From Streptomyces sp. NBC_00287 (lineage in GTDB: Bacteria; Actinomycetota; Actinomycetes; Streptomycetales; Streptomycetaceae), in assembly GCF_036173105.1 (NCBI RefSeq), contig NZ_CP108053.1, positions 3,968,001-4,032,000 on the forward strand: a stretch of DNA of 64,000 nucleotides. Direction: 5' to 3'. The position numbers and the translations under genes were made by a program. The notes under the pieces were generated by a model. The model had not been told where the DNA came from. It worked only from the letters and a program-made list of their open reading frames with translations, and searched no databases. Position 1 is the first letter of the stretch, and every line of letters starts with the position of its first letter. Below, one piece after another: positions 32,383-50,100 of this stretch.

Positions 32383-32569
32383 CGGTCGTTCCCTTCGACG
32401 GTGGCGGTCGAGGTTTCCCTCGGCGTTCGTCTGGTGAAGTTTGTTTCACTGACTTCTTGCCGTGAGTCTCCGACCGCAACCGGCCGCTGTCAACGGTCCC
32501 TGCGGTGAAGTTCTCGATGAAGGGTGCACGGAAAGGGCCGCGAATCGGCGGCCGTGCGTGGGTCGGAGG

Positions 32570-32652
32570 TGCCCGGAACCGGACTTGAACCGGTACGCCC
32601 GCGAGGGGCAGCGAGGTTTAAGCTCGCCGTGTCTGCATTCCACCATCCGGGC
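32570..32652 (-). tRNA. bldA: tRNA-Leu (anticodon UAA), bldA
   Basis: On the minus strand the acceptor arm GCCCGGA...TCCGGGC (32646-32652 with 32571-32577), the T arm with GGTTCAAGTCC, a long class-II variable arm (GCCCC...GGGC) and the anticodon stem GCGAG/CTCGC enclosing the loop CTTAAAC are all visible. The loop gives anticodon UAA, reading the codon UUA. In Streptomyces this rare tRNA is bldA, the developmental regulator needed for aerial growth and antibiotic production. CCA is not encoded. TAGGCT at 32681-32686 (minus strand) is a plausible minus-10 element. Confidence 0.95.
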
Positions 32653-45662: not shown

Positions 45663-46946
45663 TCAGGCACTCGGGGTGAACTCGACCGGAAGCGTGCGCA
45701 GTCCGCGCATGATGAGCCCGCCACGCCAGCGCAAATCATCCGGTTCCACCGCGAGTCGGAGATCCGGGAGGCGGGTGAGGAGGGTGGCCAGCGCGGTCTG
45801 ACCCTCCAGACGGGCGAGCGGGGCGCCCAGGCAGTAGTGGATGCCATGGCCGTAGCCGAGGTGCTGGTTGTCGCGGCGGGAGAGGTCGAGCGTGTCGGGG
45901 TCGGCGAACCGCTCCGGGTCCCGGTCGGCGGCGGCGAGGACGACGAGGACCGGGTCGCCGGGGGCGATGTCCTGGCCGCCGATGGTGAGGGGCTGCGTGG
46001 CGAAGCGCCAGGTGGCCAGCTCCACGGGGCCGTCGTAGCGGAGGAGTTCCTCTACGCCGGTTTCGAGGAGGTCCGTCTCCTGTGCGGCGAGGGATTGCTG
46101 GAGGCGGGCCCTCTGATCGGGGTGGGTCAGCAGGGCAAATGTTCCATTACCGATCAAATTCACCGTGGTTTCAAAGCCGGCGAACAGAAGGATGAAGGCC
46201 ATCGCCGCGGCCTCGTTCTCGGTGAGGTGCTCGCCGTGGTCGGAGGCGCGGATGAGCCCGGAGATGAGGTCCTCGCCGGGGGCGGGCTCGGCGGGCAGCG
46301 CCTCGCGCTTGCGGTGGATGAGCTCGGCGAGATAGCCGCGCATCTTCTTCACGGACCGGGCGACTCCGCCCCTGGGGCCGCCCTGGTGGCGGATCATCAT
46401 GCCCGCCCAGTCCCGGAAGTCGTCCTGGTCCTCGCGGGGGACGCCGAGCAGATCGCAGATCGCGTAGATGGGGAGCGGGAAGGCGAACTCATGGATGAGG
46501 TCGGCGCTGCCGGTGTGCGCGAACTTGTCGATGAGCTGGTCGGTGAGCTCCTGCACGCGCGGCGCGAACTCGGCGACCCGGCGCGGCGTGAACGCCTTGC
46601 TGACGAGCCGTCGCAGCCGGGTGTGGTCCGGCGGGTCGATATTGAGCAGATGCGTCATCAGCTCGGCCTTGCGCTCACCGGGGATACCGGTCTTGCCCTT
46701 GGCGTGGGCGGGCTCGTCGTGATGTGCGGGGTTCTTGCTGAGCCGCTGGTCGGCCAGGGCCTGCTTGGCGTCGGCGTAACGGGTGACCAGCCAGGCCTCC
46801 ACTCCGCTGGGGAGCGTGGTCCGGTGCACGGGGGCGTGCTCACGGAGCCAGGCGTAGGCGGGGTAGGGGTCGGCGGCGAACTCCCAGGTGAAGAGGTCGG
46901 GGGCCGGGGCGGGGGTGTTGGGGGCGGGGGTGGAGTGGTCGGTCAC
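45663..46946 (-). CDS. Cytochrome P450
   Basis: 427 residues, typical bacterial class I P450. I helix AFILLFAGFETTVN with the AGxxT oxygen-activation motif, ExxR as EELLRYDGP, and haem loop GYGHGIHYCLGAPLARLEG with the Cys ligand. Overall pattern is of the CYP105/107 region of the family. It hydroxylates an unknown small molecule and needs a ferredoxin, none of which is encoded nearby. GTG at 46946 overlaps the stop of the upstream ATPase gene by 4 bp (46943-46946), so its translation is tied to a TTA-containing message. Confidence 0.93.
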   Translation of the reverse strand: MTDHSTPAPNTPAPAPDLFTWEFAADPYPAYAWLREHAPVHRTTLPSGVEAWLVTRYADAKQALADQRLSKNPAHHDEPAHAKGKTGIPGERKAELMTHLLNIDPPDHTRLRRLVSKAFTPRRVAEFAPRVQELTDQLIDKFAHTGSADLIHEFAFPLPIYAICDLLGVPREDQDDFRDWAGMMIRHQGGPRGGVARSVKKMRGYLAELIHRKREALPAEPAPGEDLISGLIRASDHGEHLTENEAAAMAFILLFAGFETTVNLIGNGTFALLTHPDQRARLQQSLAAQETDLLETGVEELLRYDGPVELATWRFATQPLTIGGQDIAPGDPVLVVLAAADRDPERFADPDTLDLSRRDNQHLGYGHGIHYCLGAPLARLEGQTALATLLTRLPDLRLAVEPDDLRWRGGLIMRGLRTLPVEFTPSA

Positions 46947-49069
46947 TCCTTGACGGTATCCGGCGGTGTCTCAAGGGTCTCTTCGAGTGCCGGGTCGTGG
47001 TGTCGGCCGAGGACCAGGTCGACGCCGATGCGGACGGCGCGTTCCGACGACAGTGCGGGGCCGGGGGCGGGGGGCCGCTTCGGGGCGGCCTCGGCGCGAT
47101 GCCGCATCAGGGCGGCCACGATCTGTTCCTCCCCGAGGGCCGCCCGAAGCGCGGGGAGAACCTCGCCGGCGGAGGGCTTGCCGTTCTCGGCCGCCACGCC
47201 CAGCCAGTGCAGGGCCCGCGCGAGCAGAAGGAAACCCAGTAGCTCCGCGGGTTCGGGATTTCCGGCCTCCGCCGCCACCTGGATATAGGGGATGGCCTCG
47301 GTCAGCTCTCCCTGTTCAAGGAGGAGATACCGCCCGAGGGAGTCGGCCATGCTCGGCTCTCTCTCCGCGATCCTGCCCCACCAGCGCCGCGCCTCCGGGG
47401 CGTCGCCGGCCCAGGTCGACAGAACGGCCAGGATCGCATCGGCGCCGAGTTCGCCCGCCTCGGCCGCGATCCGCACGACGTCGCGAGCCGCCCGGGACAC
47501 CTCGTCGCGCTCGGGCAGGTCATACTCCGCCGCCACGTGGGCCATGGTCCCCCAGAGGTGAGAGGTGAAGGGCGGCAGGCCGGGGCAACGGCTCGCGTCC
47601 GCGACGAGCGTCCCGCACGCCCGCCACGTGCCCTCTTCCGCACCGGGTACGAGCAGCCCGCTGACTCCGAGCCGGGGCCTGGTCGCCCACTCCAGGTCGT
47701 CCTGCGAGACGGGACCGTCCAGGCGTCTGTCCCCGTGCACCCGGCTATATCCGTACATGCCGCGTACGTTGATCATGTACTCCCATGTCTCGGGCGCCAG
47801 ACCACTGGTGAGACCACAGCGGGCCGCGTCGATGGCCGCGCTCACCAGCAGATACCCGTTCGCCCGCCCGCCCGGACGGCTCGCCCGGCACCACTCCTCC
47901 CACAACTCCGGGCCGACCGACAGGAACTGGGTGACCCCCAGCTCGCCCCGCCATCGCAACGCGTCCCCGAGCCGTGGGTCGTCCGACCGAGCGAGCCGCG
48001 CGAGTTCGTCCTCGCTCCAGTCGCAGGTCAGATCCACGGTGCGGGCACCACGCAGGGCACGGGCCGTCGGATGGTCCCCGAAGCGGTGTGCCTCGTACGC
48101 CGTGTCCCGCATCGTCGCGAGCACCAGCACGCCCTCGTGGATGACCTGCGCCAACGGCCCCGCCACCACGCCCCGTTCGTCGAGATGGCCCTCCAGATCG
48201 TCCAGCCACACCACATACGTACCGGCGGGATCGCGCCCGCGCAGGGCGGCGGGGAGCTCGCGCAGATCCGTCCCGGAGTGGGCGTTGAAGATACGGGTGT
48301 TGTCGTCGGCGTTGCGGTGCAGCGCGGCCCAGGCCGTCGCCGTCTTGCCGGCCAGCGGCTCGCCGGTGACCACGACCAGACCACCCTCACGCAAGGCCTG
48401 CGCGACCAGCCGGTCGAGGTCCGCGTCCCGGTCGCGCGGGATGTACGGCGGCAGGGCGGGCTCGTCCCCGAAGGCACTGACGGGCCGTACGCCCAGGGCG
48501 CGGCGCCGTAACTCGGCGAGGCGGGGCCAGCGGTCGGCGGATGCGGAGCCTATGTGGCCGTAGTTGTTCTGTACGCCGATGACGGGGGCGTTGAAGCGGG
48601 ACCGGCTGAAGTCGACGTGCTCTTGGGGGCCGGGGACGTGGGGCGTGTCCTGGGAGACGGAGATGACGGAGACGGGGGGCGGTACCGGAACCGGGGCGCC
48701 GAGGACGTCACCGCACTCCACGCAGTAGATGTCGCCGCTTTCCGTCTGGGCCTCACAGGACGGACAGGCGGCCGAGGGGACCGGCTTGAACTCCTCGATG
48801 AACTGCTGGACTTCATGGGCGATGACCGCCCTGTTGAAGGCCATACGGATCTTGGACTTCCAGATCAGCGCCGCGTTCCGCGCGGAGATCGCCCCGCTGC
48901 TCACATCGCGCCGGAAGCTGTCCAGGGTCGGGCCGGCGTCCTCCTTCATGGCGATGCCGTAGATATGGACGAACGTCGGCTTGGCCCGCAGTTCCCACTC
49001 CGCCGATCCCATCGACGACACCAGAACCCCAGCCGCCGCAGCCGCCAGATCGTCCAACATGCCTGACAT
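46943..49069 (-). CDS. Large P-loop NTPase (STAND-like) with zinc ribbon; contains a TTA codon
   Basis: 708 residues. Residues 1-95 form an unrecognised helical domain. A zinc ribbon follows (CPSC...CVEC, about 100-118). Near 157-171 FNAPVIGVQNNYG resembles the short beta motifs that mark many Streptomyces STAND or conflict proteins. The P-loop GEPLAGKTA is near residue 235 with a Walker-B-like VVWLDDLEGHL, so this is an ATPase. From about 500 onward helical Sel1/TPR-like repeats appear (ARRWWGRIAEREP, AIPYIQVAAEAGNPEPAELLGFLLL). Leu 187 is encoded by TTA (48509-48511, in frame), so translation depends on bldA. Coupled to the downstream P450. Function unknown; a signal-sensing switch is the likeliest class. 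Confidence 0.75.
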   Translation of the reverse strand: MSGMLDDLAAAAAGVLVSSMGSAEWELRAKPTFVHIYGIAMKEDAGPTLDSFRRDVSSGAISARNAALIWKSKIRMAFNRAVIAHEVQQFIEEFKPVPSAACPSCEAQTESGDIYCVECGDVLGAPVPVPPPVSVISVSQDTPHVPGPQEHVDFSRSRFNAPVIGVQNNYGHIGSASADRWPRLAELRRRALGVRPVSAFGDEPALPPYIPRDRDADLDRLVAQALREGGLVVVTGEPLAGKTATAWAALHRNADDNTRIFNAHSGTDLRELPAALRGRDPAGTYVVWLDDLEGHLDERGVVAGPLAQVIHEGVLVLATMRDTAYEAHRFGDHPTARALRGARTVDLTCDWSEDELARLARSDDPRLGDALRWRGELGVTQFLSVGPELWEEWCRASRPGGRANGYLLVSAAIDAARCGLTSGLAPETWEYMINVRGMYGYSRVHGDRRLDGPVSQDDLEWATRPRLGVSGLLVPGAEEGTWRACGTLVADASRCPGLPPFTSHLWGTMAHVAAEYDLPERDEVSRAARDVVRIAAEAGELGADAILAVLSTWAGDAPEARRWWGRIAEREPSMADSLGRYLLLEQGELTEAIPYIQVAAEAGNPEPAELLGFLLLARALHWLGVAAENGKPSAGEVLPALRAALGEEQIVAALMRHRAEAAPKRPPAPGPALSSERAVRIGVDLVLGRHHDPALEETLETPPDTVKE

Positions 49070-49110
49070 ACAAGCCCCCGTGCCCCAGAGCCGGCCCTTG
49101 GGTAACCGTA

Positions 49111-50100
49111 CTAACCTTCCAGGCCCTCGGCAGCCCGCACCGCATCCCGGTATGCCCGTCCCGCCGCCCGCAGCGCGGCCTCCGGGTCCACGCCCTCCGC
49201 CTCGGCGCGCACCGCGAGGGCGAGGAGGTCGTAGCCGATGCCCTCGGTCTGCGGCAGGGGGACGTCAAGACCGGCCGTTCTGACGCGGGACGCCAGCTTC
49301 GCCGCGAGGGCGAGGCCCGGCTGGCCGAGGGGGATGCCGTCGGTGACGGACTCCCTGCGCTTCTCTGTCGCCTTGGTCCGCAGCCAGTGCTCCTTGACCT
49401 CCTCCGGGGTGGTGGCCGTCTCGTCTCCGAAGACATGCGGGTGGCGGTGGATCAGCTTGGCGACGATGGTGCCGGCGACATCGTCGATGGAGAAGGGCGC
49501 GTCGGGATCCTCCTCGGCGATGCGGGCGTGGAAGACGACCTGGAGGAGGACGTCCCCCAGTTCCTCGCGCAGTTCGTCCCGGTCCCCTTCCTCGATGGCC
49601 TCGACGAGTTCATAGGCCTCCTCGATGCCGTACTTGGCCAGCCCCTTGTGGGTCTGCTGGGACGACCAGGGGCACTCGGCGCGGATGCGGTCCATGACCT
49701 GGACGAGGTCGAGCAGGCGGGCGCCCGGCAGGTCGTAGGAGGCGGGGAGCAGTTCCAGCTCCGGCATGCTGACGCGGCCGGAGCCGGCGAGGCGGGCGAG
49801 GCCGTCGGTCAGCGCCGGTTCGCCCTCGCCGGTCGCCACGACCACGACGGTGCGGCCGCCGGCGCAGATGTCGACCAGCTCCTCGGCGGTCGGCGCCGCC
49901 TCGGCCACCCGTATCCCCGCCTCGCGCAGATACGGCAGCTGCGGGTGGGCGCCGTCCGCGCACAGCACGCTGTCGGCGGAGTGCAGCGCCTGCCAGGCGG
50001 GCCAGGACAGCAGGCCGGGGGCGACGCGGTGGCTGGTGGTGAGCAGGACGATGCGGCCGGGGGCGGCGGCGGGCGTGGCTTCGGGGCTGGTGGTGTTCAC
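49111..50100 (-). CDS. mazG: Nucleoside triphosphate pyrophosphohydrolase MazG
   Basis: 329 residues. The N-terminal 120 residues look like a degenerate tetrapyrrole-methylase-like domain, as in YabN-type fusions. The MazG domain follows: CPWSSQQTHKGLAKYGIEEAYELVEAIEEGDRDELREELGDVLLQVVFHARIAEE contains the EExxE and ExxD metal ligands. A second weaker MazG-like half is at the end. It hydrolyses aberrant NTPs or ppGpp-related nucleotides. No ribosome site is obvious before GTG 50100, but TAGCTT (minus strand, 50107-50112) ends 6 nt away, so the transcript may be leaderless. Confidence 0.9.
   Translation of the reverse strand: MNTTSPEATPAAAPGRIVLLTTSHRVAPGLLSWPAWQALHSADSVLCADGAHPQLPYLREAGIRVAEAAPTAEELVDICAGGRTVVVVATGEGEPALTDGLARLAGSGRVSMPELELLPASYDLPGARLLDLVQVMDRIRAECPWSSQQTHKGLAKYGIEEAYELVEAIEEGDRDELREELGDVLLQVVFHARIAEEDPDAPFSIDDVAGTIVAKLIHRHPHVFGDETATTPEEVKEHWLRTKATEKRRESVTDGIPLGQPGLALAAKLASRVRTAGLDVPLPQTEGIGYDLLALAVRAEAEGVDPEAALRAAGRAYRDAVRAAEGLEG

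Follow-up and report, generated by a model that had tools for sequence, protein, structure and literature searches.

Does a TTA codon in one gene hold back the cytochrome P450 encoded immediately downstream, and what is the large P-loop protein that carries this codon? The question is raised by a locus in Streptomyces sp. NBC_00287, within a 64,000-nt stretch of the chromosome (contig NZ_CP108053.1, positions 3,968,001 to 4,032,000 of the forward strand; hereafter the window, with coordinates counted from its first letter), where the stop codon of a STAND-like ATPase gene overlaps the GTG start codon of a P450 gene by 4 bp. An earlier note, made from the letters of this DNA, had taken the two for a translationally coupled pair held back until the bldA tRNA is charged, the ATPase being a possible sensor or defence-type switch; its coordinates, reading frames, stop/start overlap and TTA at codon 187 were all recovered here as described (Table 1). 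The reading towards which we lean, with somewhat better than even confidence, departs from its regulatory part: the large gene would encode an NLR-type STAND receptor, would occupy a presence/absence slot between a mazG-type gene and the P450 gene and would own a promoter, whereas the P450 would be expressed mainly from a separate promoter, the overlap being incidental.

In a sample of 150 genomes of the genus (loci and genomes carry labels beginning with L and G, respectively), the P450 gene is near-core: 144 genomes, our own included, give a match at E ≤ 1e-120, with best-match identities of 76–94% elsewhere. The STAND protein is patchy; some match at E ≤ 0.001 is found in 80 of the 150 genomes, many of these to the repeats or the zinc-ribbon linker alone. 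Every one of the 15 best non-self matches (E 1.3e-104 to 2.9e-66) sits in the interval from mazG to the P450 gene, which bears out the linkage in other genomes on which the earlier note depended; at L079, which is among them, the slot gene is followed directly by a broken P450 gene, and an unbroken P450 copy is found close by in opposite orientation. We read 141 P450 loci, namely the window's own and 140 of the 143 non-self ones (G008, G038 and G145 were left out). A STAND gene or its remnant is present at 19 of them, comprising 15 intact copies with the P450 next to them (window included), L079, L080 (cut by a contig end) and the remnants L081 and L082, while 122 are without the ATPase. mazG and the P450 gene lie within 120 bp of each other at 42 loci, 121–900 bp apart at 30 and, with the STAND gene absent, more than 900 bp apart at 32; at 18 loci, the stretch taken has no mazG upstream. 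In a quickly built P450 tree, many of whose forks are weak, STAND presence switches at least 12 times, and the linkage occurs in separate parts of the tree. A further slot copy, L217, adjoins mazG in G139, a genome lacking a P450 match at E ≤ 1e-120, with the contig ending just downstream. A branch with support 100/100 separates all 18 non-remnant slot copies from four distant STAND proteins. In some genomes, the slot is instead occupied by an opposite-strand globin/FAD/NAD reductase (flavohaemoprotein-like) gene, seen by Pfam at L133:1808-3026 and by similar N-terminal sequence at L098, L118, L163 and L179. A search of GTDB contigs with the STAND protein gave 37 pattern-matching stretches and no confirmed relative among them, and no publication on this mazG–P450 slot was found in the literature collection searched, as judged by titles and abstract openings.

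The STAND gene is constrained but fast-evolving. Across 105 pairs from 15 loci, median identity is 39.8% for the STAND protein, 88.2% for the P450 and 81.1% for MazG, and the window compared with the other 14 loci is 33–41% identical in the former and 86–94% in the P450. In eight of eight STAND pairs, NG86 dN/dS is below 1, with STAND dN about 4 to 12 times that of the P450. As the window's STAND protein groups with L065 (97/92) and its P450 with L091 (88, unstarred), exchange between lineages is possible.

A -10-like TANNGT hexamer occurs 4–9 nt 5' of the P450 start at 125 of the 141 loci, with spacings of 6 nt (n = 107), 7 nt (n = 17) and 5 nt (n = 1). The single 5-nt case (L102) was held to be spurious, lying 1002 nt away from the expected start; the element at 6–7 nt is thus present at 124 of 141 loci, whereas shuffled upstream DNA had it at 0.61 loci on average and at no more than 3 of 141. 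Invariance of TA..GT is uninformative because the scan fixes these bases, whereas spacing and frequency were not imposed. Judged by its spacing, the element is in the geometry published for leaderless Streptomyces genes, for which a -10 motif TANNNT, a share of about 20–21% of mRNAs and a preference for AUG are reported (PMC6742748, PMC4895711), and of which a stricter list holds 264 (PMC4681348). The element is kept alike at loci with and without the ATPase, and the P450 gene appears to own a promoter and to be probably independent of the STAND gene. Read in codons, the element is the STAND C-terminus PDTVKE* (CCG GAT ACC GTC AAG GAG TGA), its stop being supplied by the P450's own GTGA. Since these letters are the P450 -10 element, PDTVKE is not a protein motif; as such a motif, ending nearly all orthologues, it was dropped, for upstream frames reading PDTV..* end in similar letters also at loci without a STAND gene. 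An xTGA at the P450 start is found at 19 of 19 loci with a STAND gene or remnant and at 56 of 105 other loci bearing the element. With the P450 -10 and start codon lying in the STAND 3' end, the overlap would be a by-product of position rather than a coupling device. The STAND gene is preceded by TACSGT at 13 of the 15 intact loci, abutting the mazG stop in 10 and lying 24–41 nt further in three; it is missing at L065 and L070. As each gene has a -10-like element, the two look separately transcribed. A polar effect of the UUA codon on a read-through mRNA is possible, given the precedent of SCO6638/SCO6637 in S. coelicolor, where a UUA in the upstream gene can lower the gene whose start overlaps its stop (PMC2000904).

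In-frame TTA codons are present in two of the 54 genes of the window, called by GC content at third codon positions (GC3), namely STAND codon 187 and eno codon 16. Because the latter precedes the recognisable enolase start (a start of our own reading) and falls in a mechanical N-terminal extension, the STAND codon stands as the only one among confident genes, as had been claimed. TTA is a rare leucine codon by which many genes are confined to late development, and it should limit the full-length protein to cells holding charged bldA tRNA. The gene for the cognate tRNA-Leu(UAA) lies about 14–16 kb from the TTA-bearing STAND gene, both within one window. Eight of the 16 intact slot genes carry TTA, amounting to nine codons in seven alignment columns versus 0.85 expected from their own leucine codons (chance of seven or more about 3e-5 by Poisson, near relatives not being independent). 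Conservation of the TTA, named beforehand in the earlier note as a refuting test, came out divided: the position is not conserved, one column being common to three near relatives and the sites otherwise shifting, and a TTA somewhere in the gene recurs in 8 of 17 orthologues once L217, which has none, is added. The P450 has a TTA at one of 141 loci (L115 codon 4, near an inferred start) and mazG at none of 121. NB-ARC genes of our own genome (L223-L240) carry TTA in 7 of 18 cases, nine codons versus 1.64 expected, with some of these TTAs near uncertain starts and some of the genes SARP-type regulators by our reading; STAND genes as a class may be TTA-rich. P450 genes of the same genome (26, from 31 matched stretches of which the other five are second stretches of the same genes) have TTA in three, three codons versus 0.6 expected, and the independence expectation is an imperfect null because accessory P450s exceed it too. 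In a survey, genomes held 177 genes with TTA on average, and transcription and signal transduction were often over-represented among them (PMC10327506). Since the controls point both ways, recurrent bldA gating of the slot STAND genes is plausible only, and the gene of the window is possibly bldA-gated.

The large gene product looks like an NLR-type STAND receptor with a helical domain, a RHIM/BASS-like motif, an NTPase and repeats. P-loop residues G236, G241, K242 and T245 are invariant in 16 of 16 aligned orthologues (window included, as in the orthologue counts below). The AlphaFold model (mean pLDDT 75.3, pTM 0.59) predicts a five-helix N-domain (residues 2-94), an NTPase core and a region of helical repeats, with the stretch 120-175, which holds the motif, at pLDDT <50. 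Ten chains were matched by Foldseek at E ≤ 0.001, including two of SAMD9, the plant NLR RPP1, CED-4 and an AVAST5 filament, with Apaf-1 and Avs4 just above 0.001. Pfam calls TPR_12 in 11 and Sel1 in 7 of the 16 orthologues and no such repeat in the window protein itself, where helical repeats are visible in the model. As to the zinc ribbon and Sel1-like repeats of the earlier note, the CxxC pairs are there (residues 102-105 and 116-119, among aligned slot orthologues only in the window protein), whereas Pfam zinc-ribbon matches are weak (E ≥ 0.045, under the curated cut-offs) and the repeats go uncalled. The zinc ribbon and linker (codons 95-154, window ~48608-48787) match frames of 460-507 amino acids in six other genomes of the genus at 35-49% identity, for which reason this stretch looks like a shared module. 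PADLOC matched the window protein to none of its families at E ≤ 1 and gave a single match (E=0.0099, set aside) over the 16 orthologues; no effector-associated domain (EAD) family was called by Pfam in any of them. Distant relatives of the core have N-termini that are trypsin-like, HTH-like or membrane, judged from their letters alone, which one would expect of a STAND family whose output modules can be swapped.

The beta motif, with FNAPVIGVQNNYG at residues 159-171, comes in two main forms among slot orthologues, HVDFR..F..PVVGVQ.N.YG-like (window, L070, L072-L076, L078 and, more loosely, L079) and VSGG..F..PVVQAG-like (L067, L068, L071 and, more loosely, L065 and L077), with a third, mixed form in L066 and L069. 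Pfam gave no BASS-type match for it in the window protein. Profile searches of the motif and of the N-terminal domain, both proposed in the earlier note, were productive in our own genome. Besides recovering itself (5e-13), the motif profile, built from nine sequences of the first form, picked out one C-terminus, that of a PNP_UDP_1 protein (2.0e-5; L215:12914-13909) encoded directly 5' of an NB-ARC STAND reading frame; two more STAND/TPR proteins were matched at their N-termini (at 3.1e-5 and 0.012). Of the other matches, the one at 0.0049 lies in a frame that we do not regard as a gene, and five with weaker values (0.09 to 5.3) were left unused. The surrounding region, L215:2809-13909 at ~6.45 Mb, is a STAND/TPR cluster including a nucleosidase-STAND-TPR fusion (917 amino acids), a STAND protein with N-terminal motif and the PNP_UDP_1 protein, which is overlapped by the downstream STAND frame. 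The N-domain profile returned small proteins of ~150 amino acids (3.1e-6, 1.7e-5 and two at 0.0084), and hhalign of the domain against three of these gave 93.6% (E=2.1e-7); Pfam found no family in two of the three and only weak ones (E ≥ 0.031) in the third. One small protein, near 57.6 kb of the chromosome (L219:1486-1950), ends in FAVQGGNLHLH, and ~30 nt or less past it begins a P-loop reading frame whose N-terminus, YAVQNGDLSVYF, carries a similar motif by eye. The two are a candidate two-gene amyloid-type pair resembling the published Bell/BASS-NLR pair, and membership of the N-domain in Bell would follow by inference. A second small helical-domain protein (L220:1441-1917 / L228) lies directly 5' of an NB-ARC STAND gene, where we saw no clear common motif. 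Another, with a TAIQTG motif, occurs at L221 and L222 (~11.6 kb and 9.631 Mb; only L221 translated), at the same distance in from each chromosome end, as a terminal inverted repeat would give. Slot orthologues have an N-domain of either the window type or a different one, or lack it altogether (L065, L067, L068). A single N-domain family for all was rejected, the window type matching those of L072-L075 and of L066/L069/L071 at 0.2% and 0.6%, respectively; the latter two match one another (probability 85.4%). These motif and N-domain relatives, together with the Foldseek chains, support the earlier description of an ATPase that is STAND-like, carries an odd beta motif and has an architecture of the conflict type.

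Table 1. Features of the mazG–STAND–P450 locus and the cognate tRNA gene in the window.
Feature	Position	Strand	Remark
STAND (NLR-type) NTPase gene, putative	46943..49069	(-)	708 aa; P-loop protein
P450 gene	45663..46946	(-)	427 aa; near-core
mazG-type gene	49111..50100	(-)	conserved upstream edge of slot
STAND stop / P450 GTG start overlap	46943..46946	(-)	4-bp GTGA
TTA codon 187 of STAND gene	48509..48511	(-)	
tRNA-Leu(UAA), bldA-type	32568..32652	(-)	reader of TTA
TACGGT, conserved -10-like element of STAND gene	49105..49110	(-)	abuts mazG stop; inferred promoter
TACCGT, conserved -10-like element of P450 gene	46953..46958	(-)	6 nt 5' of P450 GTG, within STAND 3' end; inferred promoter
N-terminal five-helix domain (predicted)	48788..49066	(-)	STAND residues 2-94; kin to small stand-alone proteins of own genome
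Zinc-ribbon-like CxxC..CxxC	48713..48766	(-)	STAND residues 102-119
RHIM/BASS-like motif HVDFSRSRFNAPVIGVQNNYG	48557..48619	(-)	STAND residues 151-171; disordered in model
Walker A GEPLAGKT	48341..48364	(-)	STAND residues 236-243
Walker B-like VVWLDDL	48194..48214	(-)	STAND residues 286-292
C-terminal helical repeat region, TPR/Sel1-like	47087..47563	(-)	STAND residues 503-661

Judged by gene order, the P450 would be CYP107U1, which is reportedly required for sporulation, according to a title in a reference list. SCO3099 has been placed in CYP107U (PMC6838473).

In the NLR-type receptor reading, the repeat region would sense a trigger, the NTPase would then oligomerise, and the RHIM/BASS-like motif and helical N-domain would relay the signal, perhaps to effectors encoded elsewhere; the STAND gene would be transcribed from its own promoter at the conserved -10-like element, the TTA would let full-length protein arise only in cells whose bldA tRNA is charged, and the P450 would be transcribed mainly from the promoter embedded in the STAND 3' end. 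Several observations weigh against this picture. Pfam nSTAND3 reaches only E=7.7e-5 and 22.9 bits in the window protein, below the curated cut-off of 27.2, and E ≤ 0.01 in 4 of the 16 orthologues; the Foldseek chains at E ≤ 0.001 also include ORC/Cdc6 and MuB, with low TM scores, and by Z in VIA-align general AAA+ chains lead, Avs5 tying and NLR chains not being singled out. No -35 column is conserved for the P450 gene, and GTG makes up 103 of the 125 P450 starts although AUG is favoured in leaderless mRNAs. The 4-bp overlap (GTGA or ATGA), which is in frame with the P450, is found in 18 of 18 non-remnant slot copies, and in the S. coelicolor precedent a TTA gene did lower, in a bldA mutant, the neighbour whose start its stop overlaps (PMC2000904). 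The last two points are the strength of the single-operon model, in which the TTA would hold back the STAND protein and a translationally coupled P450 until bldA tRNA is charged. We nonetheless regard it as improbable, and the claim that both genes are so held back as doubtful, with the ATPase absent from 122 of the 141 P450 loci, the -10-like element kept at 124 regardless and xTGA also common at STAND-less starts. A STAND protein serving as dedicated sensor or regulator of the P450 would account for the close slot linkage in separate parts of the P450 tree; it seems very improbable to us in view of a P450 that is retained without the STAND gene, the at least 12 changes of presence, the two remnants, the very different rates of divergence and the lack of any DNA-binding family found in the window's STAND protein. 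The distribution does not support a functional partnership of the two proteins, and the P450 as effector of the STAND protein was set aside in view of its near-core occurrence.

Just short of an even call is the view that the TTA has no regulatory role of its own and passively marks an accessory gene that changes fast. The sites are unconserved (seven columns in eight genes), the accessory P450s of our own genome also exceed expectation, and the survey found most TTA sites poorly conserved and some tied to gene transfer (PMC10327506). Distant STAND genes, a further point against the receptor reading with its bldA limit, show no excess, having three codons versus 2.9 expected in 18 rows, of which two (L017, L028) are slot copies without TTA. 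The high count in the slot genes, for all the non-independence of near relatives, and that in the NB-ARC genes argue in the other direction. More far-reaching, and in our estimate rather unlikely, is a scenario in which an NLR-type receptor would join a Bell-like helical domain, a swappable motif of amyloid type and a STAND sensor in one chain, its gene occupying a fixed core-chromosome slot next to mazG and the P450 gene. It would diversify in the manner of immune receptors, and new TTAs would repeatedly impose bldA control, so that a switch for conflict or cell death would be armed in developing mycelium alone. If true, the preferred reading of an NLR-type receptor beside a separately promoted P450 would join two open questions, the role of amyloid-type NLR networks in filamentous bacteria and the reason for TTA codons in many Streptomyces genes outside secondary metabolism. 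The slot would then be a simple comparative system, with the same flanks, a gene that is present, decayed or absent, and an exchangeable motif and N-domain. It also advises caution: where a stop and a start overlap by 4 bp in Streptomyces, this can reflect an embedded promoter and start codon, and translational coupling is not thereby proven.

Among known systems, the proposed bacterial amyloid NLR signalosomes (BASS with Bell effectors), whose mark is a motif common to receptor and effector (PMC7889193, PMC8086366, PMC12261475), come to mind because the receptor is NLR-like and has a short beta-type motif, the PNP_UDP_1 protein carries a related one C-terminally, and small helical-domain proteins occur, one of them beside a STAND frame with a similar motif. 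Unlike in those systems, helical domain, motif and STAND core are here joined in one chain, and no motif-bearing effector gene is adjacent, the neighbours mazG and P450 being without the motif. With the STAND conflict systems of multicellular bacteria that use EADs (PMC7159879), the locus shares an exchangeable N-terminal adaptor-type domain and a filamentous host; unlike them, it has no EAD family called by Pfam and no paired effector next door. The putative STAND fold and C-terminal helical repeats, as matched by Foldseek, are also features of Avs/AVAST defence receptors, from which the window protein is set apart by the lack of a PADLOC call, low TM scores and the lack of an N-terminal nuclease or SIR2. 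As in SCO6638/SCO6637, the stop codon of a TTA gene overlaps the next start (PMC2000904); unlike there, the downstream gene, here a P450, has a conserved -10-like element of its own.

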